A stretch of 64,000 bases of DNA from Ignavibacteria bacterium (GCA_015709655.1 CP054181.1:237262-301261); one strand, 5' to 3'; numbered from the stretch's first letter, positions 4,555 through 26,114 are shown. Translations and numbers: made by a program. Notes: a model not told the origin generated them from the letters alone.

Positions 4555-5487
4555 ATGAACCGTAGCATACTGTTATTATGTTGTCTGTTGGTAACAACCT
4601 CACTTGTGTTTGCGCAGACGGAAGATGTCCTGCGTCCGCAAGGAAAGCCTGGCGGCTATAAGTCCCTTGGTAAGCGCTCATCCGTCATTGGCATAGAGGG
4701 TGGGATTAACATGGGGTTTTTGTCGCAAAGTATCACGCCAGTTAATCCGGATTTTCCTATTGCGAAGTCACCGGAACATGTGCTAAACAGCGGATTTGGC
4801 ATCGCACCATCGATAGGTTTGTTTACAGACATCCCGTTAACCGGTACGATTGGTATCCAGGCTCGGTTTGGCTATCAGGGCAGAACAGTCAGTAATACAA
4901 AGTCTGACGCAATTGCTGAGGCATCAATAACCCAAAACGAAGGACTCATCAATGGTTCCCTGTTCACAGAGGCAACGGTTGAGTCGTATTATAAACTGGT
5001 TTACTCTTCTGTCTCAGTTAGCCTGCTCGGACGTTTTGACATAACAAAACAGTTGTTCGTTAGCTTCGGTCCGGTGGTTGAGTGGAGAGTTTCCAATGCC
5101 GAGCGTAGTGACAGAGTTACAGTGCTCAGTCCGGACGAAGTGAACTTCACCGTTAACTACTTGGGAGAGAGCGTTAGAGAGAAGACGATCACCCGCACTG
5201 ACACGATTCAGCAGAGTATCCTGCCACAGGCGTCGTACACCGAAGCAAGCAGTTATGCCGCTTCCAGAGTTGCACTTGAATTTGGCATTGGCTACCGGTA
5301 CCAAATTTCAAAAGGAATCTATGTAGCCCCCAACGTCCGGTATCAGTATTTTCTAACCAAACTCACAACCGGCTTCTCGTCACTCGATGGATCGCGATTG
5401 TTCACTCAAGGCTCTACACAAATTGACTTTGACAAGGCCAGTCTTAATCATCTGGCAATCATTCTTCAACTTGGATTTGAAATTTAA
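4555..5487 (+). CDS. Outer-membrane beta-barrel protein with signal peptide
   Basis: A 310-residue exported protein. Residues 1-20 form a signal peptide (hydrophobic LLLCCLLVTTSLVFA, cleavage before Q21). The rest alternates short polar turns with amphipathic strands typical of porin-like barrels (GFGIAPSIGLF, IGIQARFGYQGR, LEFGIGYRYQ), and the last strand ends in aromatic/hydrophobic residues (LAIILQLGFEI), as membrane barrels do. It sits 11 bases before the PorE-like gene on the same strand, so the two are probably co-transcribed and may act together in the outer membrane. It resembles the PorT/porin-family barrels that accompany T9SS genes in Bacteroidota, but I cannot assign a specific member. 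Confidence 0.7.
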   Translation: MNRSILLLCCLLVTTSLVFAQTEDVLRPQGKPGGYKSLGKRSSVIGIEGGINMGFLSQSITPVNPDFPIAKSPEHVLNSGFGIAPSIGLFTDIPLTGTIGIQARFGYQGRTVSNTKSDAIAEASITQNEGLINGSLFTEATVESYYKLVYSSVSVSLLGRFDITKQLFVSFGPVVEWRVSNAERSDRVTVLSPDEVNFTVNYLGESVREKTITRTDTIQQSILPQASYTEASSYAASRVALEFGIGYRYQISKGIYVAPNVRYQYFLTKLTTGFSSLDGSRLFTQGSTQIDFDKASLNHLAIILQLGFEI

Positions 5488-5498
5488 GGGGCTACGTC

Positions 5499-6956
5499 AT
5501 GCGCAGTATTTTATCGTTTTTACTGGTACTTGGGTACGTGGTTGCAGCACATGCACAGGCAGTTCAGGTTAGTCCGATTGACCACAATACCTCTGCCGAT
5601 GACTTTGCACCGGCACCCACGCAAAATGGTCGCGTGCTTATCATCAGCTCCGATAAATCGGGCAGACAACAGTTGTACGGTATGGAACGCACAAGTTCCG
5701 GGTGGGATGTGCCAGTACGTCTGCGTGGGGATGTGAATGACGGAGACATGGTGGGGGCTGCTTCGTTAACATCTGACGGACAGACGATGGTATTTTCTGC
5801 TACCAATCATGATGTTGAGGGGCACGGACGTACTGATTTGTACATGGCAAAGAAATCCGGCGGAAGCTGGAACAACATTACAAATCTGGGTGGAACCGTA
5901 AACTCGCAGTATTTCGATTCGCAACCAACACTGGCGGCAGATGGTACGATCATTATTTTTACCAGTGACCGGCCTGGGGGCCTGGGCGGAACAGACCTGT
6001 ATATCAGCCAGCTTGTTAACGGCACCTGGAGTGCGGCCAGACCGTTAGACGGTGCAAACTCGCCCGCGAATGAAATGGGTGCTGTACTTAATCCCGATGG
6101 TAAAACAGTAACGTTTGCAAGTGATAAGGCAGGCGGCCTTGGCGGCTTCGATATCTATGTGGGAACGTTGTCCAACGGAAAGCTCAGCAATATCCGGGCT
6201 GCTGAGGCTCCCATTAATAGTGCAGCCAGTGAAATGTTTTATGCGTCGGTACCAAACAGTAACCAAGCGTTTTTTGCCCGTACCTCGGCATCCGGCGATT
6301 ACGACATTTATACTGCCGTCCCCAACCCATTCCCGGGAGATCCGGTTACCACCGTTGAGGGTGTTGTTCAGGATATTACAAACAAACAACCTCTTGGTGC
6401 CGATATGGTGGTTACTGACCTAACCACCCAAAAGGTGATAGCAACACTGCGCAGCGATGATCAGACTGGTGAGTACGTTGTAACGTTGCCTGCAGGACGT
6501 GTGTACTCAATTACCGCAAAATCTCCTGGGTACCTTTTTCATTCGGAACGGTACCAAGTTCCACCAAATGCAAAGTCACAGGTAATAAAGAAGGATATTT
6601 ATCTTTCTCCGTTAAAAGGCGGCGGTGCGCGTTTGCTGGTATTCTTTGATTTCGACAAGTCCGAGCTGAAAAGCGAGTCGTACCCCGAGCTGGAACGCGT
6701 TATTGAACTCCTCCGTCAAAACCCGGGAATGAAGGTACGGTTTGAGGGACATACCGATGATCAGGGCGAGGCTGCGTATAATCAAAACCTCAGCGAAAAA
6801 CGGGCAAAAGCAGTTGCCGACTATGTTGTTAGTGGCGGGATTACTGCTTCGCATGTTTCCAGCGTAGGCTTTGGCAAAACCCAGCCGCTTATGGACGGTG
6901 CAAGTGACGAAGCTCGTGCTATGAACCGACGTGTAGAAATGAAGGTTGTACAGTAG
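5499..6956 (+). CDS. PorE-like protein: PD40 propeller, carboxypeptidase-regulatory-like domain, OmpA domain
   Basis: A 485-residue exported protein that probably anchors an outer-membrane complex to peptidoglycan. Residues 1-19 are a signal peptide ending AHA. Residues of about 35-270 carry PD40 (TolB-like) propeller blades, visible as repeated ISSDKSG, FTSDRPGGLGG and FASDKAGGLGG. Residues 285-370 form a carboxypeptidase-regulatory-like beta sandwich (VEGVVQDITNKQPLGADMVV). Residues 375-485 form an OmpA C-terminal domain with the peptidoglycan-binding pattern FDFDKSEL and EGHTDDQG. This order matches the T9SS component PorE except that PorE also has N-terminal TPRs, which are absent here. 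An AAGGGGC element ends 6 bases before the ATG. The gene ends at a strong terminator. Confidence 0.8.
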   Translation: MRSILSFLLVLGYVVAAHAQAVQVSPIDHNTSADDFAPAPTQNGRVLIISSDKSGRQQLYGMERTSSGWDVPVRLRGDVNDGDMVGAASLTSDGQTMVFSATNHDVEGHGRTDLYMAKKSGGSWNNITNLGGTVNSQYFDSQPTLAADGTIIIFTSDRPGGLGGTDLYISQLVNGTWSAARPLDGANSPANEMGAVLNPDGKTVTFASDKAGGLGGFDIYVGTLSNGKLSNIRAAEAPINSAASEMFYASVPNSNQAFFARTSASGDYDIYTAVPNPFPGDPVTTVEGVVQDITNKQPLGADMVVTDLTTQKVIATLRSDDQTGEYVVTLPAGRVYSITAKSPGYLFHSERYQVPPNAKSQVIKKDIYLSPLKGGGARLLVFFDFDKSELKSESYPELERVIELLRQNPGMKVRFEGHTDDQGEAAYNQNLSEKRAKAVADYVVSGGITASHVSSVGFGKTQPLMDGASDEARAMNRRVEMKVVQ

Positions 6957-6994
6957 GGTTTCTGCGCAAAACCAACAGGTCACGACATAACAAT

Positions 6995-7041
6995 GCCCCT
7001 GAGCTGGATCACTCTACGTGTTGCTCAGGGGCTCTTTTTTT
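6995..7041 (+). terminator. Rho-independent terminator of the PorE-like operon
   Basis: A perfect 10-bp stem GCCCCTGAGC / GCTCAGGGGC (6995-7004 and 7023-7032) with an 18-nt loop is followed by TCTTTTTTTC. The T-run is on the plus strand only, so it stops transcription of the 4555-6956 genes just before the convergent tryptophanase stop at 7043. Confidence 0.85.
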
Positions 7042-7042
7042 C

Positions 7043-9876
<2,834 letters not shown>

Positions 9877-16492: not shown

Positions 16493-16552
16493 CACAACAA
16501 GCAATTCATGCCAACCGTCACACATCACCACCGTTCAGCCACTGTCTGCAGT

Positions 16553-18502
16553 ATGATCCCTGCAGTGATGATTGTTACGTTAGCCTTACTGGTAACCAGA
16601 CAAGCTCCGGTTACGGCACAGCACACACAGTACGGCGTTCACGGGGGGGTTGTGTACTCTTTGCACGCAGCTCAGTTTACCCAGTTGGGTGATTTCGCAT
16701 CATGCTGCCCGTCATTTACCGGCGGCTCGGGCACCGGCTTTCTTGCAGGTCTTCATGCAGCGTACCGGTTGTCTGACAAACTCTTTTTTGTTCCAAGGCT
16801 TACCCTGGTGCAGGAAAACGGGAGTATGCAGAGTGAGGAGTGGACGTTTGTGGCAGACCTGCGCGACACTCCGCGGGTGCGGCGTGCGATGTTCCTGCAC
16901 GAGTTCACCTCTTCGGTTTCTTCTGTGGGCATCGAACCAACATTCCTGCTCGGTATCGTTGGTAACCTTTCTCTAACTGGCGGTTTACGAGCTGCGTGGG
17001 TCTTTGATGGTTCGTTTACTCAGCGCGAAACTCTGGTAGAACCCGATGATTATGGCAGTTACTTGGGGTCAGCCAGGACGTGGGTTAATTACCAGGAACA
17101 GATTCCGGATTTATCACCGTTCAAAGCCGAAGTTCTCGGTGGCCTGCACTACTCACTCTCTGTAGGCAAGGCGCAACAGTGGCACCTGGGTACAGATGTT
17201 AGTATCGCCATCCCCATTACCAACGTAACCAGCTCGGCTGAGTGGCGAACTACGAACATCAGGCTTGCTATTGCAGTGTCACACGGGGCCAAAGTGCCCG
17301 AAGCAGACACCAGTATCGCACTGCCTCTGGTACCGAATGCTGACACTGTTACCTTGCCTGCGCCTCCCTCGCTGTCACCACCTGAAATAACGCTGAAGCT
17401 TGAAGGACTCATTCAGAACTACCGGGTTCCGTTTGACTCGGTTCATGTTGAAGAAACTCTGATTGTTGACTATCTGCCTGTTCTTAATCATGTTTACTTT
17501 GACGAAGGGAGCAGCACTGTCCCCGAACGGTATTCAACTGCAGCACACCGCATGGTATCCGACGCACGGCTAACTCCTGTGCAGGCTACCACGGCTATTC
17601 TCGGCATCGTGGCTAAGCGTTTTCGTGAAAAACCGCAAACGCACATCACCGTTGTTGGCTCTGCCGGTCCTGATCTCGCACTCCACGGAATACGCCTGGC
17701 GCAACAACGAGCTGAATCAGTTCGCGCTTCCCTTGTGTCGCTTGGCATTCCTAAAGAGAATATCAAGGTGCAATGGCAAGCCGACCCGCTCACGCCAACA
17801 CGCGCATCCGATCCGAAGGACTTCGCAGCAGCAGAAGCCGAAAACCGTCGCGTTGAAATTCTGGTGTCAGAATCATCACTCATGCGACCACTTGAACTCC
17901 AAACAGTACAAACGGTTGTAACACCTGACGATATTGCAGTTTCGTACAACATTTCGGCAGATACCACGCTTCGTGCTTCGCAGGTTTTTATAAATGACAG
18001 CAGTGTGCACCGCTCGACTGCACTGCAACATTCATTCACCATTCCGTCACCCACAGAGCCCGCGGAGCTGTTGGTTGTTGCAACCGATGTAGAGCACAAC
18101 ACTGCAAAAGCATCCGCATCCATACCCGTGAGCACCCTAACCATTCACCGCAAGAAAACCGAGCATCGCGGCAACCTTGAAGTTGAACGCTACAGTCTGA
18201 TTCTTTTTGGATTTAACGATGCAACTGTCACCAAACAGCACCAGGAAATCCTGCAGATTATTCGTAATAAAATCAGGAAAGGGGCTTCGGTTCGTGTTAT
18301 TGGTATGACTGATGTTGTGGGAAGCAAGGAGCATAACACCCTCCTTGCCCAACGAAGAGCAGAAGAAGTTGCGAAAGCTCTCGGTATTTCCGAATCAGAG
18401 ATCGAGGCCACAGGATCACAAGCCCCGCAATTCAGTAATAACCTACCGGAAGGACGTGCATACAACCGAACCGTGATTATCGAAATTTCGGATAAACAGT
18501 AA
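16553..18502 (+). CDS. Outer-membrane protein with N-terminal barrel and two OmpA-like domains (first paralogue)
   Basis: A 649-residue exported protein. The signal peptide MIPAVMIVTLALLVTRQAPVTA supports the start at 16553; an upstream ATG at 16508 would add 15 polar residues. Residues to about 270 form a predicted beta-barrel domain with a CCPSFTGGSGTG motif. A first, divergent OmpA-like domain covers about 310-450 (NHVYFDEGSSTVPERY, AAEAENRRVEI). A linker with a beta domain leads to a second OmpA domain (about 550-649: LILFGFNDATV, GRAYNRTVIIEI). In the second domain the usual first aspartate region reads FGFNDA and the peptidoglycan loop GMTDVVG, so binding is plausible. Its paralogue lies at 22888. 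Confidence 0.75.
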   Translation: MIPAVMIVTLALLVTRQAPVTAQHTQYGVHGGVVYSLHAAQFTQLGDFASCCPSFTGGSGTGFLAGLHAAYRLSDKLFFVPRLTLVQENGSMQSEEWTFVADLRDTPRVRRAMFLHEFTSSVSSVGIEPTFLLGIVGNLSLTGGLRAAWVFDGSFTQRETLVEPDDYGSYLGSARTWVNYQEQIPDLSPFKAEVLGGLHYSLSVGKAQQWHLGTDVSIAIPITNVTSSAEWRTTNIRLAIAVSHGAKVPEADTSIALPLVPNADTVTLPAPPSLSPPEITLKLEGLIQNYRVPFDSVHVEETLIVDYLPVLNHVYFDEGSSTVPERYSTAAHRMVSDARLTPVQATTAILGIVAKRFREKPQTHITVVGSAGPDLALHGIRLAQQRAESVRASLVSLGIPKENIKVQWQADPLTPTRASDPKDFAAAEAENRRVEILVSESSLMRPLELQTVQTVVTPDDIAVSYNISADTTLRASQVFINDSSVHRSTALQHSFTIPSPTEPAELLVVATDVEHNTAKASASIPVSTLTIHRKKTEHRGNLEVERYSLILFGFNDATVTKQHQEILQIIRNKIRKGASVRVIGMTDVVGSKEHNTLLAQRRAEEVAKALGISESEIEATGSQAPQFSNNLPEGRAYNRTVIIEISDKQ

Positions 18503-18509
18503 TCGCGGT

Positions 18510-18540
18510 TTTGCCTTACGATGGTTATGATGTACTTTTG
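18510..18540 (+). promoter_or_regulatory. Bacteroidota-type promoter of the vWA/WD40 gene
   Basis: TTTG at 18510-18513, a 19-bp spacer, then TACTTTTG at 18533-18540. This is an exact fit to the TTTG-N19-TAnnTTTG consensus known from Bacteroides and Flavobacterium. The ATG is 40 bases downstream at 18581. Confidence 0.5.
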
Positions 18541-18580
18541 ATGCTAAGCACAATGTATTCATACCTGACGAGAGCCCGAA

Positions 18581-21500
18581 ATGCGTTCTTTTGCTCTGCT
18601 TCTGATTCTGATTCTATGTTGTTTTGCACCGTTGCATACAAATGCACAGACATTTGTTGTGGTTGGTCACAAGCTTACCAACTACCCCAATGTTGAGTTG
18701 CAGGTATATGGGTATTCTAACCTGGGCATTCACACCGTAGTCTCTAATCCCGTTGTTACTGTTGACGGTACTGAAGTGCCTGCCCAGGGAGTTCTGGGAC
18801 CATCGGCATCACCACGGAACATTTCGTGCATTCTCATGTGTGATGCCTCGGCAGCACTCAACATTGGCTCGCCCTCCAACCTTCAGATTACCAAGGCCGT
18901 TGCTTTAACAGCAACAGATTACGACAATGGTCTCAGTGACGAAGTGGGACTTGGCAAATTCGATATCCGGCCAACTCTCCTGTATGGAATGAACCAAGAT
19001 AAACTCAGCTTAATACAGGCTTTGGATGATCTCAAGCCCGGTGTTGGATGCAACCTGGACAGTGCAATTCTTGAGAATACGGAGGGGGCTTTGAGTCACC
19101 TTCGTAGCAGCCGAAATGCAAGAGCACTCATTCTTACCCTGACTGGAACACCAAGTATCAATGCTGCTGAAATTATTCGCACTGCACGGAATTATCGTGT
19201 GGCAATCTATATCGTTGGTATCAGAACGGCTCTAACATCCGACGTACGGTCACTGGCCGATAGTACTGGCGGACTGTACATTGAGAATATTAACAATGAG
19301 GAAGACGCCCAGGACTTTACGCGGGCATTTATCTCGCATGCAAAGCAAACGCAGCAAACCCTAATCACGTTTACCATGCCGGATGCATGCACCAGTACCA
19401 GAGAGGTAACGGTAACATGGACCGAAACGAAGCGCAGCGTCACGCTCACACTACCATCAAACACCTTACCGACACTTGCTTGGTCTGAACCGGGAGGTGT
19501 TGATTTCGGAACCGGCACAGCCGCATCTGAACGCACCGTTCAGCTTACTGCCCTTGTCAACCCTGTTACAATAACAAATATTGCCATCAGTAACCCAGCA
19601 TTTACCCTCGTTGAACCCATCCCTGCCGGTACTGTTATCCAGCCTAACCAGAGTCTTTCGGTTCGCATCGGATATCTGGGAAGCACCAGTGGCGTAGCAG
19701 GAAGTATTACCATTACCTCTGATGCCTGTGTGTACCAGCCATTATACCTTCGAGGTGGCAGCTATATCAGCGGTGACAAGCTTGAATTAACTACTCCAAA
19801 CGGAGGCGAACAACTCAAGGCAGGTGTACCCTATAACATCACGTGGGCCAACGTCCTCCCTGCTGATGTTGTACGACTTGACCGGAGTTCTGACGGTGGG
19901 GTAACATGGACGCCTATCACGGAAACAGCGAGTGGATTACAATATCAGTGGAATGCTGGTCCGGGTACCGGAAGCAACATGATGATTCGTGTACAGCGAA
20001 CGTCGCTCTCACCCGATGCAATCATTACGCTTGCAGGACACCGCGAACCGGTGTATTCTGCCGCATTCTCCCATGACGGATCACTGGTTATTTCCGGCGG
20101 ACATGATGGAACAGTGCGTGTGTGGAATGCTGTTACCGGCGAGCAGATCCGCGAGCTGGGAATTCACGGTGCATGGGTGTGGACGGTAACCACTCATCCC
20201 ACAACAATGGTTGGTGTTAGCGGAGGTCATGATGGTATCGTGCGTGCCTATCAGTTGGAGACCGGGGAACGCCTTCAGTCAATCACCGCACCATCAAGAG
20301 TCTGGTCAGTTCGGTTTTCACCTGACGGCAGTACTCTTGCTGTTGGCACCGACAAAGCAATCAGTATTTACTCGTGGCCCGATATGAACCTTGTTAACTC
20401 GATTGCGGTTGACGGCGGCCCCGTTTATAGTGTGAAGTTCTCGGCTGATGGAACGTATATTGTAACGGCCGAAGCTTCGAAAACAGTTGTCAGAAAAACC
20501 TCTGACTACCAGGTCGTTGCTTCGTTCGATGCAGCACCTGCCACAGTGTACGCAGCTGACATCAGCCCGGATAATTCAACGGTTGCTACCGGTGGCAGCG
20601 ATTTTGTTGTACGTACCTGGAACCTGACTTCCGGTGCCATACGGAAAACCTCAGCCCCTTCCATAGCGTCGATCCTATCACTTGAATTTGCAAACGCAGG
20701 CAGCAAGTTGCTTGTTGGCGGAGGTGACGGCACAGCAAAAACCTTCAAAACAAGCTCGCTGGAATTAGAAAGTTCGTTTAGTGCCGGCCCGTCCCTGATA
20801 TACTCTGCCACCGGTGATCCTACCGGTGAACGTATCCTTACGGCAGGTACAGATTCGTTTATACGAATTTGGAATATCGCTCACGCGGAAACCGTTACGG
20901 ACCAAAGCAACAACACGTTCACCATCGTCGGCGGCGTAGGAACGTATTCGAATGTTAACCATGGCTCGGCAGAAATCGGCAGAGCCTTGCAGCGCAATTC
21001 CGTCGTGATCGAAAATACCGGGACTGACACCCTTGTAGTGAACGGCTGGCGTATGATTGCCGGTAATGTACAAGATTTTACCATCCTCAGTGCATCAGGT
21101 GTTAACCATATCGAACCGAACGGCACCCTAAACATTGCAACATCATTTCAACCCAATGCTGAAGGTGTTCGTGAAGCAATCGTAGAAATCGATGCCGGAG
21201 GCGAAACACGGCGAATTACATTGTCAGGCACTGGCATATCTCCGATTTTGTTCCTACCCCCTGTTGTGAACTTTGGTCGCAGGCTGGCCGGAGGTAATGC
21301 CGCCGACACTTCAGTCCTGATACGGGTGGGCACCACAAGCCAGCCGGTAACGATAACACGCACGCTGTTGCTGGGAGTACAGCAGGGCGCGTTTGAAATC
21401 CTTACGGGCGGCGGCGGATTTACGTTAAACTCGAACCAAAGCCGGACGATATCGCTCCGCTTTGCACCAAGCGCTGCCGGAAGATTTGCTGCCTGGGTTG

Positions 21501-22891
21501 AATTTACGCTGAGTGATGGCTCAACCAGACTCATTCGCCTGTATGGCGAGGGTGCAGGCGACGCCCGAATTCGCTCGTCAGATCAGACGCTGCTGTTCAA
21601 CTCAAATCAGTGCAACACAGAATCGTCAACAAAATCCTTCTCAATTGGAAACCGTGGCACATCACCATTGGTGATCTACTCGATTGATATTGGGGGTGTT
21701 CACAGTAGTGAGTTCAGTGTAATGGCACCAACTACGTTCCCGGTTTCTGTTAATTCGGGAGACTCAGTTGACGTTCAGGTACGCTTTGCACCACAGACAG
21801 CAAGTCAGAAAGATGCTTCGGTCGTGATTTCGTCAAATGCGATTGACTCACAGAACGGTGTAACCCAGATTGCAATTGTTGCCAGGAAGGACAGTGTCGC
21901 ATTCGAGTTGTCGAGAACAAACGTTGTGTTTGACAATGTTAACGAAAATGAGCAGGCTGAGCAGCGTATTACGATTTTCAATACAGGCTCGGTGCCATTG
22001 CGCTGGCCTGTTAACAGTACAACGATCGGAGCATTCCGTATCGAAGCAGCAACCCCGTACATTACCCCGCCCGGAGCATCCAGTGAAGTCGTCATTCGGT
22101 TTACCGGAGGCACCGTAGGCAATGAGTACAAAGGAACTTATACCTACCAGGATTCGCTCTGTGGCAGAAACATCGCACTGACGTTCGAGGCACACGTCAG
22201 GTCATACATTGGCTGCACAATTGACCTGCCCAAGACAAGTGCTTCCTTGGGAACGGTGGTGCAGGTGCCCGTTCGCATTATTAACAAGGTAAACTTTAAC
22301 CGGACAACGATTACAGAAATACAGGCGCGGTTTAGGGTAAATGGCACTATCCTTACGCCTCAGGGTATTACCAGCGAGTTTCATCCGAATGGTGACCGCA
22401 CCTTTGATGTTTCACTCCCAATTCCTACGTCCGGCGATGTATTGGCTACGATACCATTTGCTGTAACCTGGGGTTCTGATACAGCATCGGCAATTACAGT
22501 TGACTCGGTGTGGGTTAACGATACAGTCCAGGTTAGAGTCAATAACGGGCAGGTTGCCATTTCTGACCTGTGCCGGGAAGGCGGCCCCCGGCTACTGTTG
22601 CGCAACCGCAATTCGGCAGCCACGGTACATCGTCCGGCAGAGCTTCGTGTTGTCCCCCAACCCGCTTCAGCATTTGCCACCATCGATTTACATATTGTTG
22701 AGTCAGGCCCAACCACGGTTACCCTGGTTGATGCCTCCGGCAGAATCATTGCCGTGCCTGTTCAGCGTGATCTGGAAATCGGCGATTACCTTATCCCCTT
22801 CGATACTGCGATGCTAGACCCGGGAACCTATACCCTGCATCTTGTAACGCGTACTCATACAATGTCTCACCGTTTTAGTGTAATCCGATGA
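18581..22891 (+). CDS. Giant secreted vWA / WD40 / choice-of-anchor protein with T9SS sorting tail
   Basis: A 1436-residue exported protein. Residues 1-22 are the signal peptide (ending TNAQ). A von Willebrand A-like domain covers about 70-260 (ILMCDASAALN); its MIDAS reads DASAA instead of DxSxS, so metal binding is doubtful. A choice-of-anchor-like domain and a Ser-rich TWANVLPADVV module follow. A WD40 propeller covers about 483-770, with blades such as FSHDGSLVISGGHDGTVRVWN. Several choice-of-anchor D/ASH-like Ig folds (about 780-1240) repeat IENTGTDTLVV and FAPSAAGRF patterns. The last 85 residues (VVPQPASAFATIDL to the end) are a T9SS type A sorting tail. It probably displays a protein-binding platform on the cell surface. 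It overlaps the next gene by 4 bases (ATGA). Confidence 0.82.
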   Translation: MRSFALLLILILCCFAPLHTNAQTFVVVGHKLTNYPNVELQVYGYSNLGIHTVVSNPVVTVDGTEVPAQGVLGPSASPRNISCILMCDASAALNIGSPSNLQITKAVALTATDYDNGLSDEVGLGKFDIRPTLLYGMNQDKLSLIQALDDLKPGVGCNLDSAILENTEGALSHLRSSRNARALILTLTGTPSINAAEIIRTARNYRVAIYIVGIRTALTSDVRSLADSTGGLYIENINNEEDAQDFTRAFISHAKQTQQTLITFTMPDACTSTREVTVTWTETKRSVTLTLPSNTLPTLAWSEPGGVDFGTGTAASERTVQLTALVNPVTITNIAISNPAFTLVEPIPAGTVIQPNQSLSVRIGYLGSTSGVAGSITITSDACVYQPLYLRGGSYISGDKLELTTPNGGEQLKAGVPYNITWANVLPADVVRLDRSSDGGVTWTPITETASGLQYQWNAGPGTGSNMMIRVQRTSLSPDAIITLAGHREPVYSAAFSHDGSLVISGGHDGTVRVWNAVTGEQIRELGIHGAWVWTVTTHPTTMVGVSGGHDGIVRAYQLETGERLQSITAPSRVWSVRFSPDGSTLAVGTDKAISIYSWPDMNLVNSIAVDGGPVYSVKFSADGTYIVTAEASKTVVRKTSDYQVVASFDAAPATVYAADISPDNSTVATGGSDFVVRTWNLTSGAIRKTSAPSIASILSLEFANAGSKLLVGGGDGTAKTFKTSSLELESSFSAGPSLIYSATGDPTGERILTAGTDSFIRIWNIAHAETVTDQSNNTFTIVGGVGTYSNVNHGSAEIGRALQRNSVVIENTGTDTLVVNGWRMIAGNVQDFTILSASGVNHIEPNGTLNIATSFQPNAEGVREAIVEIDAGGETRRITLSGTGISPILFLPPVVNFGRRLAGGNAADTSVLIRVGTTSQPVTITRTLLLGVQQGAFEILTGGGGFTLNSNQSRTISLRFAPSAAGRFAAWVEFTLSDGSTRLIRLYGEGAGDARIRSSDQTLLFNSNQCNTESSTKSFSIGNRGTSPLVIYSIDIGGVHSSEFSVMAPTTFPVSVNSGDSVDVQVRFAPQTASQKDASVVISSNAIDSQNGVTQIAIVARKDSVAFELSRTNVVFDNVNENEQAEQRITIFNTGSVPLRWPVNSTTIGAFRIEAATPYITPPGASSEVVIRFTGGTVGNEYKGTYTYQDSLCGRNIALTFEAHVRSYIGCTIDLPKTSASLGTVVQVPVRIINKVNFNRTTITEIQARFRVNGTILTPQGITSEFHPNGDRTFDVSLPIPTSGDVLATIPFAVTWGSDTASAITVDSVWVNDTVQVRVNNGQVAISDLCREGGPRLLLRNRNSAATVHRPAELRVVPQPASAFATIDLHIVESGPTTVTLVDASGRIIAVPVQRDLEIGDYLIPFDTAMLDPGTYTLHLVTRTHTMSHRFSVIR

Positions 22892-24942
22892 AGAATTTAT
22901 CATTTGTCTTAGTATTAGCTCTGTTTTCTGCTCTGGTATTGGATGCACAAGAAACGCATAACCATGAAAAAACCACCAGGAATGCAACAGCTACTCCTAC
23001 CGTAGAGTTCAACGATGCCGCCCGCATTAGTTTGTTCGGCAATTATGACATTAGCGTGAGTAGCGCGAGTTTCCAAGGTATCCCCGGAGTATCAAGCTGT
23101 TGTCCGGAATATACAAGCACCACGGGCTCCGGTCTTGTGCTTGGTGTTGGGTACATCAAGCCGTTAAATACTGATCTGACGCTGAACCTGCGAATGCACT
23201 ATCAATCCTTCAAGACACCATTTACGTCAAACGAAACCCTCCCCATTGTGGACCTTGAAGGTGGCCCGTCGCAGGCATCAATAGAGCACCAGCTTACGGG
23301 AACCTTCCAGCAGATAAACCTTGAGCCCCTTATGGCCTACCGTCTGGCTAATAATCTGCAGGCGCTGGGAGGCGTTACACTGGGAGCCGTTTTTGCAGCT
23401 GACTTCAGCCAGAAGGAAGTTCTTGTAACACCGGTTGACGGAGCGTTTGCCAATAATTCGCGGGAGCGAAACGTGCAGAGCGGACAGATCCCGGATAACT
23501 CGGTGATTGCAGCCGGAATATCCGTGGGGCTTACATACAACCTTGCTCTCAATTCTGACCGCACACTGTTCCTGTCACCCGAGGCATTGTTTACCTTCTC
23601 ACTGTTTCCCCACGCATCCAACATGTCTTGGACCACCCATCATCTGCGTGCAGGACTTGGAATCAGCTATGCACCGCCACCTGTTGACGATTCGCTGACT
23701 GATTCTGAATTATACGAGTTTGCAACATCAATCACACCACCAACAGCAGTCAGTCCTGACGTTCCCTTTGTTAGCAGCATCAGCCATAACGGTCTCACTG
23801 AAACCGGTGTACCCACCGATGGTAGCAGTATTACTCTTGAAGAATTCCTCTCAACCCGTATCAGACCCTTGCTTCCATATGTCTTCTTCAAACCGGGCTC
23901 TGCCGAATTGCCTGAAACCTATCGTACCCTTAGCTCAGATCAGGTAGAGCGCTTCTCGATGAAGAATTTCTACAACCTCGACGCCATGATTACATACTCA
24001 CACGTTCTAAATATCATTGGCAAGAGGATGAACGAAAACCCAGCATCGGCAGTTACACTCACAGGCTGCGCCGATCCGCTGGAGAATAATGCATCCCTTG
24101 CTGCAGAAAGAGCACAGGCTGTGGCAGACTACCTGACCGATGTATGGGATATCGCGCCAAAACGAATTAACGTGATCACCCGCGGACTACCTGAAAAGCC
24201 GTCACGTTCTACTGACGCTGACGGTCTTGAAGAAAACGCGCGTGTCGAAATTTCATCTGCGTCACCCGAGCTCCTTGCATTTGTGGAAAGCTCCGATACC
24301 ATGGTTGTTACACAGCCAAGCGCAATTCGATTTGAACCCGGCATCAAGCCAAATATGCCAATAGCAAATTACACGCTCTTTATTGCCAACGGACAACAAC
24401 TACTCAAAACCTTTAGTGGCCCGGATCCGCTCCCAACAGCTATTGACTGGCGCATCAGTGAAAGCGTGCCGTGGATTCCAAAAACAGCAACACAGGTAAG
24501 CTACCTGATTGCCGTACGTGACTCCGGAGGTGCTGTCATACCGTCGGCAACGAAAACAATTCCAATTCGGCGTATCACGTCGCAAGACAAACAGCGCAGC
24601 GGTTCGCCAAATATTAAAATTGACCGCTACTCATTGATATTGTTTGGCTTCGATCAGGATGCCATTACACCCGATCATCAGGAAATTATCAGCTTGATTA
24701 AACAGCGCATTCAGCCGAATAGCACTGTTAAGGTTGTTGGTTATACAGACAGAACCGGCGATGCTGCGTACAACAAAGGGTTAAGCGAACGCCGCGCACG
24801 GTCTGTAGCTAAGGCATTAGGCGTACCTGAAAATAATGCCAGCGGTCGCGGCGAAGTGCTCCCACTGTATAACAACAACACACCCGAAGGCAGATTCTAT
24901 TCAAGAACTGTTGAAGTCTTGGTAGAAACTCCTCAGAACTAA
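22888..24942 (+). CDS. Outer-membrane protein with N-terminal barrel and two OmpA-like domains (second paralogue)
   Basis: A 684-residue protein built like the product of 16553-18502. It has a signal peptide (MKNLSFVLVLALFSALVLDAQ), a barrel of about 270 residues containing the matching CCPEYTSTTGSG motif, a first OmpA-like domain (about 320-475: PYVFFKPGSAELPETY, ENARVEISSA), an Ig-like linker, and a second OmpA domain (about 575-684: LILFGFDQDAITPDHQEI, GYTDRTGDAAYNKGLSERRA, GRFYSRTVEVLV). The second domain is the better preserved of the two. The start codon overlaps the stop of the giant WD40 protein, so the two are translated together. The likely role is to anchor the surface protein or its complex to peptidoglycan. 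Confidence 0.77.
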   Translation: MKNLSFVLVLALFSALVLDAQETHNHEKTTRNATATPTVEFNDAARISLFGNYDISVSSASFQGIPGVSSCCPEYTSTTGSGLVLGVGYIKPLNTDLTLNLRMHYQSFKTPFTSNETLPIVDLEGGPSQASIEHQLTGTFQQINLEPLMAYRLANNLQALGGVTLGAVFAADFSQKEVLVTPVDGAFANNSRERNVQSGQIPDNSVIAAGISVGLTYNLALNSDRTLFLSPEALFTFSLFPHASNMSWTTHHLRAGLGISYAPPPVDDSLTDSELYEFATSITPPTAVSPDVPFVSSISHNGLTETGVPTDGSSITLEEFLSTRIRPLLPYVFFKPGSAELPETYRTLSSDQVERFSMKNFYNLDAMITYSHVLNIIGKRMNENPASAVTLTGCADPLENNASLAAERAQAVADYLTDVWDIAPKRINVITRGLPEKPSRSTDADGLEENARVEISSASPELLAFVESSDTMVVTQPSAIRFEPGIKPNMPIANYTLFIANGQQLLKTFSGPDPLPTAIDWRISESVPWIPKTATQVSYLIAVRDSGGAVIPSATKTIPIRRITSQDKQRSGSPNIKIDRYSLILFGFDQDAITPDHQEIISLIKQRIQPNSTVKVVGYTDRTGDAAYNKGLSERRARSVAKALGVPENNASGRGEVLPLYNNNTPEGRFYSRTVEVLVETPQN

Positions 24943-24989: not shown

Positions 24990-26114
24990 ATGCGCATTCT
25001 GGTTATTAATTGGCAGGATAAATCTCACCCGCAAAGCGGAGGCGCCGAGTCGCATCTGCACAGCATCTTTTCGCGCATCGCTGCAAAGGGACACCATGTT
25101 ACGTTACTCTGCTGTGGACATGGGAAGGCACCACACCGAGAAATATGCGATGGTATAAACATTGTAAGGATTGGCAGGCGGCCGTGGTTCAACTATATCG
25201 TCCCGTTATGGTGGACCCTGGTTGGTAAGGGGCTAAAGTTTGATATTGTTATTGATGATATCAATAAGCTTCCGTTCTTCACTCCCCGGTTTGTCAGAAA
25301 GATTCCTATTCTTGCAATCATTCACCATTTTTTTGGTGACAGTATTTATCAGCAGGCAGGCAGGCTCACCGGAAAGTATGTACTGTGGTTTGAAAAACAA
25401 ATTCCCCGTGTGTATGCCAACATCCCGATATGCGTTGTAAGCGAAAGTACCAAACAAGAGTGCATTGACCGTGGAATTCCGGATAAGAATATCCACATTA
25501 TTTACAATGGTATCGATGCCAGCCTCTTCCCCTTTGAAGTCACTACAAAAGCTACAACCGAAACACTGGTCTATTTTGGCAGACTAAAGCGTTATAAGAG
25601 TATTGATCATATCCTGCACGCAATGGTTAAAGTGCGCGAGCAATTTCCGAACGTTGTCCTGGATGTTATTGGTACTGGTGATGACCAGACGGCTCTTGAA
25701 GAAATTGCTACGGCACTTGGTCTGATCGACGTTGTCCGCTTTCATGGTTTTGTTGAAGACTCTGAAAAAGCAAAGCATCTGTCCCGCGCATACATCGATC
25801 TTAATCCGTCAGTGAAAGAAGGCTGGGGCATTACCAATATTGAAGCTAATGCCTGTGGCACTCCTGTAATCAGTGCCGATGTGCCCGGTTTGCGTGACTC
25901 CGTAAAACATGAATATTCTGGAATGCTCTATCCGTACGGCGATATTGATGAACTGGCCCGTCTAATCTGCCTGGTGCTTGCAGATGCCTCGCTGCGTGAA
26001 CGCCTAAGCATGAATGCTATTGAATGGGCACGACGGTTTACCTGGGATGCGGCGGCACAGCAGATGCTTGAGTTATGTGCGGATGTTATTCAACAACGAC
26101 GACAGAAGAAATAA
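24990..26114 (+). CDS. Family 4 glycosyltransferase
   Basis: A 374-residue GT-B fold retaining glycosyltransferase. The N-terminal domain has GGAESHLHSIFSRIAAKGHHV (acceptor side). The C-terminal domain has IYNGIDASLF, VYFGRLKRYKSID, and the donor-binding segment PSVKEGWGITNIEANACGTPVIS with the conserved EGWG...E pattern. It probably uses a UDP- or GDP-sugar in surface glycan synthesis. It stands 47 bases after the OmpA paralogue and overlaps the next gene by one base (TAATG), so it may be part of that long plus-strand unit. A role in glycosylating the neighbouring secreted proteins is possible but only inferred. Confidence 0.85.
   Translation: MRILVINWQDKSHPQSGGAESHLHSIFSRIAAKGHHVTLLCCGHGKAPHREICDGINIVRIGRRPWFNYIVPLWWTLVGKGLKFDIVIDDINKLPFFTPRFVRKIPILAIIHHFFGDSIYQQAGRLTGKYVLWFEKQIPRVYANIPICVVSESTKQECIDRGIPDKNIHIIYNGIDASLFPFEVTTKATTETLVYFGRLKRYKSIDHILHAMVKVREQFPNVVLDVIGTGDDQTALEEIATALGLIDVVRFHGFVEDSEKAKHLSRAYIDLNPSVKEGWGITNIEANACGTPVISADVPGLRDSVKHEYSGMLYPYGDIDELARLICLVLADASLRERLSMNAIEWARRFTWDAAAQQMLELCADVIQQRRQKK

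Follow-up and report, generated by a model that had tools for sequence, protein, structure and literature searches.

How are proteins secreted by the type IX secretion system (T9SS) held on the cell surface, given that their retention is understood in only a few Bacteroidota? The question is raised by three genes in a 64,000-nucleotide stretch (hereafter the window) of the 2.84 Mb single-contig genome of an Ignavibacteria bacterium (GCA_015709655.1, CP054181.1:237262-301261). The genes lie on the plus strand at window positions 16508-24942 and encode P0001 (664 amino acids, aa), P0002 (1436 aa), and P0003 (684 aa): a large predicted T9SS cargo flanked by two predicted outer-membrane barrel proteins that carry OmpA domains. 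From sequence and single-chain structure models we consider it likely that genes 1 and 3 encode outer-membrane carrier or anchor proteins for the product of gene 2, and we propose in addition a disulfide latch at the surface. For the little-studied Kapabacteria this would be a parallel solution to surface retention, with a different barrel to which the wall anchor is fused.

Architecture and conservation of the cluster

Gene 1 extends from 16508 (possibly 16553) to 18502, as defined by the gene call, profile matches, alignment to its paralogue, and its position in all 19 comparable loci. It encodes a signal peptide, a barrel (16622-17293, placed by alignment to gene 3), a first OmpA domain (OmpA1), a middle beta domain, and a second OmpA domain (OmpA2, 18185-18499). 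Gene 3 (22888-24942) has the same plan, with an 8-stranded barrel at 23020-23682, OmpA1 at 23845-24267, and OmpA2 at 24610-24939. The OmpA profile matches twice in each protein, and OmpA-domain scores of 70.3 and 81.3 bits, above the Pfam cut-off of 27.2, place the domains in that family. In the P0003 model (mean predicted local distance difference test score, pLDDT, 92.4) we counted eight long barrel strands across residues 46-261 by DSSP, one interrupted strand being counted as one, followed by two OmpA-like domains with a beta domain between them. The barrel resembles OmpA, NspA, and OmpW (VIA Z ~16-17), OmpA1 resembles Pal (VIA Z 14.6), and OmpA2 resembles the peptidoglycan-bound OmpA of A. 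baumannii (VIA Z 14.6).

Gene 2 (18581-22891) encodes, in order, a vWA domain, an Ig-like region, a PNGGE-type domain, a WD40 propeller, Ig-like and choice-of-anchor domains, a pre-tail domain, and a T9SS C-terminal domain (CTD). The model of residues 24-990 (mean pLDDT 89.3) includes a vWA-like region, Ig-like domains, and, between the latter, a seven-bladed propeller (residues ~481-775, 20021-20905, from profile and model) with a TM score of 0.93 to the designed 7-blade structure 7big; choice-of-anchor D repeats and the T9SS tail lie downstream of the modelled part. The vWA metal site is degenerate in this protein (DASAA, LTG), and the DxSxS and TDG motifs are intact in several orthologues. 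The tail is type-A-like (TIGR04183, residues 1359-1433, 22655-22879) and its match is weak: 18.1 bits by hmmscan, and 22.6 bits alone or 23 with neighbours in a six-frame search, against a cut-off of 23. A lineage CTD hidden Markov model built in this analysis, and iterated on the same loci that it scored, also supports a CTD in P0002.

These results bear out the observations in a preliminary description of the window, which had reported three collinear genes, the last two coupled by an ATGA overlap (22888-22891), flanking proteins that share a CCP barrel motif (at residues 66-67 of P0001 and 71-72 of P0003) and two OmpA-like domains, and a middle protein that combines a degenerate vWA domain, a seven-bladed WD40 propeller among Ig-like and choice-of-anchor domains, and a T9SS tail, although the tail match lies near its cut-off. 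The idea would have suffered had the two OmpA proteins been unrelated outside their OmpA domains. They proved to be full-length paralogues, with 28% identity over 658 columns that include the barrel (E 2e-71).

Co-occurrence of the three families in relatives, also suggested as a check, was found. All 19 complete family loci place P0002 between two barrel-OmpA genes, mostly with overlaps, so that conservation of the trio is beyond chance. Nearly every genome of the family has an orthologue of P0002, at ~36-49% identity, and the relatives with P0003 orthologues are mostly metagenome-assembled genomes (MAGs) of Kapabacteria or Ignavibacteria; genes in relatives are longest open reading frame calls. 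A few relatives bear other names, and contigs labelled Bradyrhizobiaceae, Armatimonadetes, and Ectothiorhodospiraceae (L090, L117, and L147) also have the family; these probably belong to mislabelled MAGs.

One OmpA domain retains the peptidoglycan-binding residues

PorE of the Bacteroidota T9SS binds peptidoglycan via D576, N584, and R591 (PMC7192894). At the corresponding OmpA2 positions of P0003, D621, N629, and R636 (24748-24795), the residue is conserved in 83, 75, and 83 of the 83 family proteins compared; in P0001 the three are D602, N610, and R617 (18311-18358). OmpA1, Pal-like in fold, has lost the canonical triad across the family and shows the pattern in only 3 of 83 members; we therefore rejected peptidoglycan binding by both domains. 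From these residues OmpA2 alone of the two looks competent to bind the cell wall.

The barrels form a large family with varied T9SS cargoes

The preliminary description had called the barrel-plus-double-OmpA build unusual, which it is not within this lineage. The genome encodes more than a dozen but fewer than 20 members of the barrel family, either barrel-only or barrel with two OmpA domains, and in a sample of the phylum each of the 20 genomes of the same order, this one included, has at least 10 matches, with no more than ~11 candidates scored per genome. Apart from one genome-wide search with a DNA pattern, the loci that we compared were chosen around barrels. A same-strand upstream neighbour with a T9SS CTD was found for 51 of 80 barrels versus 49 of 773 other genes, and for 29 of 44 barrels when orthologues of P0001 and P0003 were left out. 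After clustering at 40% identity, the immediate same-strand upstream gene has a CTD in 17/37 cases versus 49/773 (p 2e-10; p-values here ignore the kinship of the sequences and so overstate their independence). The commonest spacings between cargo and barrel are overlaps of 4 or 1 bases, -4 being the most frequent.

The paired cargoes are varied: kelch, SBBP, vWA, WD40, IgGFc-binding, and Ig-only proteins all occur, and the same type of barrel is seen alone or fused, next to different cargoes. A platform specific to the propeller was accordingly rejected. The peptidoglycan-anchored surface platform suggested earlier thus fits in part: gene order, overlap, and the OmpA2 triad agree with it, but only one OmpA domain looks competent for binding and the propeller is one cargo among many, since the expanded family is paired with many different ones. 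Independent occurrence of the three families in relatives would have told against the idea; the barrel family is indeed found elsewhere without a P0002 cargo, but the trio itself is conserved.

Could this be an ordinary envelope operon, in which the barrel-OmpA proteins are structural and have no specific partnership with gene 2? OmpA-type barrels are common as structural proteins, and many family members lack an adjacent CTD gene (about half of the non-redundant barrels). Against this, adjacency of cargo and barrel is ~7x background with overlapping starts, paired cargoes share a specific cysteine motif (described below), and Rosetta-stone fusions exist: in two order-level genomes of one genus (L087 6877-11424 and L088 5065-9723) a single protein joins vWA-WD40-Ig straight to the OmpA pair, without barrel or CTD. 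We consider an ordinary operon very improbable.

A probable Kapabacterial counterpart of the PorP-PorE anchors

The preliminary description knew of no described system of this composition. Two have been described in Bacteroidota: PorP-PorE-PG1035 of P. gingivalis and Fjoh_3952-3951-3950 of F. johnsoniae, for which a wall-anchored complex of cargo, PorP/SprF-like barrel, and PorE, each with its own gene, has been proposed (PMC9143113, PMC12618676). The cluster in the window shares their parts, namely an outer-membrane barrel and an OmpA-type peptidoglycan binder alongside a T9SS cargo; static surface anchoring is proposed for those systems, and the genes are adjacent in F. johnsoniae. Unlike them, the Kapabacterial cluster unites barrel and wall anchor in a single protein that has two OmpA domains, and the barrel, predicted to be 8-stranded, belongs to a different family from the 14-stranded FadL-type barrel of PorP. 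The cargo tail differs as well, being type-A-like here, whereas PorP/SprF carriers are paired with type-B CTD cargo (TIGR04131). The genome encodes the SprA/Sov translocon (876.6 bits versus a cut-off of 200), and has no match to PorP/SprF (TIGR03519) at E <= 1 or to the type-B CTD model. Membership of P0001 and P0003 in PorP/SprF was rejected by the model search and by strand count (8 versus 14).

P0001 and P0003 match the PorE model NF052230 only in their OmpA part, and have a barrel in place of the TPR and PD40 propeller of PorE. Elsewhere in the genome (L017; ~1,575,785-1,579,459) we identified a barrel gene with a CxC loop (4786-5667) followed by a separate PorE-like gene (5797-8460), whose product has a PD40 propeller, ends in a double OmpA module, and matches NF052230 with E 4e-41, under its curated cut-off. 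The PorE-like protein occurs in 34 of 36 relatives and its gene follows a barrel-only member of the P0001/P0003 barrel family in 26 of 29 loci. This two-gene unit is likely the PorP/PorE counterpart of the Kapabacterial lineage. As this unit has a barrel of the same family and a partner that ends in the shared OmpA pair, P0001 and P0003 look like a fusion of its two genes, with the propeller part dropped.

Given the lineage-wide adjacency of barrel and cargo, the OmpA2 triad, and the PorE-like unit with the same OmpA pair, we infer that the cluster works like the PorP-PorE-cargo anchors of Bacteroidota, but has its wall anchor fused to an unrelated barrel. P0002 would be exported to the periplasm and then cross the outer membrane through the SprA translocon by means of its CTD. 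On the surface it would stay attached to the gene 3 barrel, the gene 1 barrel, or both, while OmpA2 would tether the barrel to peptidoglycan. Such a role would also be a testable function for this expanded family, of which curated models recognise the OmpA domain only. P0001 and P0003 share the 8-stranded barrel fold (VIA Z ~16) and C-terminal OmpA domain of E. coli OmpA and P. aeruginosa OprF; unlike these, they add the Pal-like OmpA1, the middle beta domain, a twin-cysteine loop, and a dedicated cargo neighbour. Among the papers searched, none joined choice-of-anchor, OmpA, and T9SS, or DUF3494, OmpA, and Flavobacterium.

Shuttle and anchor roles have both been reported for cognate PorP/SprF-like proteins (PMC12618676), and the barrels could instead serve mainly as PorV/PorP-like shuttles for exit from the translocon, with no lasting hold on the cargo required. 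That seems unlikely, as conservation of the OmpA2 triad and the cargo type fused to the OmpA pair favour lasting attachment. Moreover, the genome has ~136 CTD candidates versus fewer than 20 barrels, so most of its T9SS proteins cannot have an adjacent barrel.

Matching cysteines in cargo and barrel

Barrel loop 1, between strands 1 and 2, carries a twin cysteine (C66-C67 in P0001, 16703-16708; C71-C72 in P0003, 23098-23103). It reads CC in most cargo-paired barrels and mostly CxC in those adjacent to PorE-like genes, and would lie on the outer side if the N-terminus is periplasmic. Barrel-paired cargoes in turn have a cysteine motif 17-28, mostly 19-21, residues before the start of the CTD model. 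In P0002 it is CREGGPRL (residues 1331-1338, 22571-22594). Cysteines 270, 383, 1011, 1194, and 1331 of P0002 are invariant in 15/15 orthologues; this number being odd, C1331 may be left free if the others pair.

The strict motif [LIVM]CxxGGx(0-2)RL is present in 42 of 67 barrel-adjacent CTD proteins versus 2 of 57 other CTD proteins; of these two, one belongs to a barrel operon and the other neighbours an OmpA gene truncated at a contig edge. Among 483,584 residues scanned, it was absent outside the last 170 residues of proteins. Searched across the whole genome as a DNA pattern for the one-residue spacing, the motif falls in frame in three CTD proteins, of which P0002 is one, and each is encoded immediately before a barrel gene. 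The motif would predict which cargoes use a barrel anchor.

Across 80 barrel-cargo pairs the cargo cysteine occurs in 69 of 74 with loop cysteines and in none of the six without. Each of the genomes that hold these six has other pairs with both cysteines, so that a loss of oxidative folding throughout the genome does not account for the joint losses. For example, three cargoes of one MAG read GLN(H/Y)AGG, with asparagine for cysteine, beside barrels that lack CC (L140, L141, and L163), and a fourth pair there (L118) has both. New here, then, are a cargo motif, [LIVM]CxxGGxRL, that is rare in other T9SS proteins, and a barrel twin cysteine, which by sequence tend to be kept or lost together.

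This matching suggests a disulfide latch to the cell wall, in which the cargo cysteine before the sorting domain would bond with the twin cysteine of the first outer loop. There is precedent in F. johnsoniae: a cysteine of GldK attacks a strained twin cysteine in SprF, and one in PorG, so that the proteins become covalently joined (PMC12635249). Both cases have a twin cysteine on an outer-membrane T9SS or gliding protein and a single partner cysteine; unlike the SprF and PorG pair, which sits in a periplasmic C-tail bonding the track, the pair here is in the first outer loop and its candidate partner is the secreted cargo. We found no literature description of that arrangement. As a possibility, still short of probable, we propose a cysteine-based code for sorting and anchoring: the motif ~20 residues before the CTD would direct a cargo to its dedicated 8-stranded carrier, whose strained outer loop would capture the cargo cysteine and so latch it covalently to the peptidoglycan-bound anchor. 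If true, the latch would be a third mode of surface attachment, covalent, beside anionic lipopolysaccharide (A-LPS) linkage and PorP-type binding, and would explain the twin-cysteine loop of a large family.

Several observations weigh against the anchor model or its latch, besides the barrels with no CTD neighbour. In five pairs the loop cysteines are present and the cargo cysteine is missing, and the six pairs without loop cysteines come from ~4 lineages, which reduces the joint loss to roughly four events. The motif may in part be inherited from a common ancestor of the pre-tail domains. No clear co-evolution of barrel and CTD emerged: a Mantel test gave r 0.43 for 19 non-orthologous pairs, no signal within the genome itself, and, at a stricter cut, a correlation for a control segment as well. 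Lastly, four Flavobacteria-like Bacteroidota genomes, so assigned by gene content (L206-L209), have one full-length homologue directly downstream not of a T9SS cargo but of a lipoprotein with Big_5 and Ice_binding domains, in which no CTD was detected. Three of the four lipoproteins have an export-like signal (CAKDDF, CASDDF, CAKDNF; PMC5080379), and they are probably surface-exposed. No twin cysteine was found in the loop of the L206 barrel, the one read. Since these homologues adjoin lipoproteins with no detected CTD, pairing of the barrel with a surface protein may be older than its pairing with T9SS cargo.

Some of these points fit the same anchor role with non-covalent binding, as in PorP/SprF, the cargo cysteine then having an intramolecular or processing role, with a vicinal disulfide formed between the loop cysteines themselves. 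The five pairs without a cargo cysteine agree with it, as do the occurrence of both barrel-only and OmpA-fused partners and the Bacteroidota homologues, which pair with surface proteins although the loop read has no twin cysteine. It accounts less readily for the two cysteines being lost together in genomes whose other pairs are intact, or for the uniform spacing of the cargo cysteine from the CTD, and we view it as somewhat doubtful.

Neighbouring genes and a paralogue of P0002

Downstream of gene 3, a GT4 glycosyltransferase is encoded at 24990-26114 on the plus strand, and wherever the contig of a family locus extends far enough (16 of 16) a gene for 368-375 aa occupies this position. It is followed by P0004 (26075-28105, plus strand), an IgGFc_binding protein whose tail is short and CTD-like and which has a related cysteine motif, ICRENGERLF; 14 of the 16 loci encode a homologue. 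Elsewhere the genome encodes a paralogue of P0002 (L022 5605-9429, minus strand) with vWA and WD40 domains, no CTD, and a C-terminus like barrel strands; it is conserved in L084 and L085 with a neighbour of 380-391 aa.

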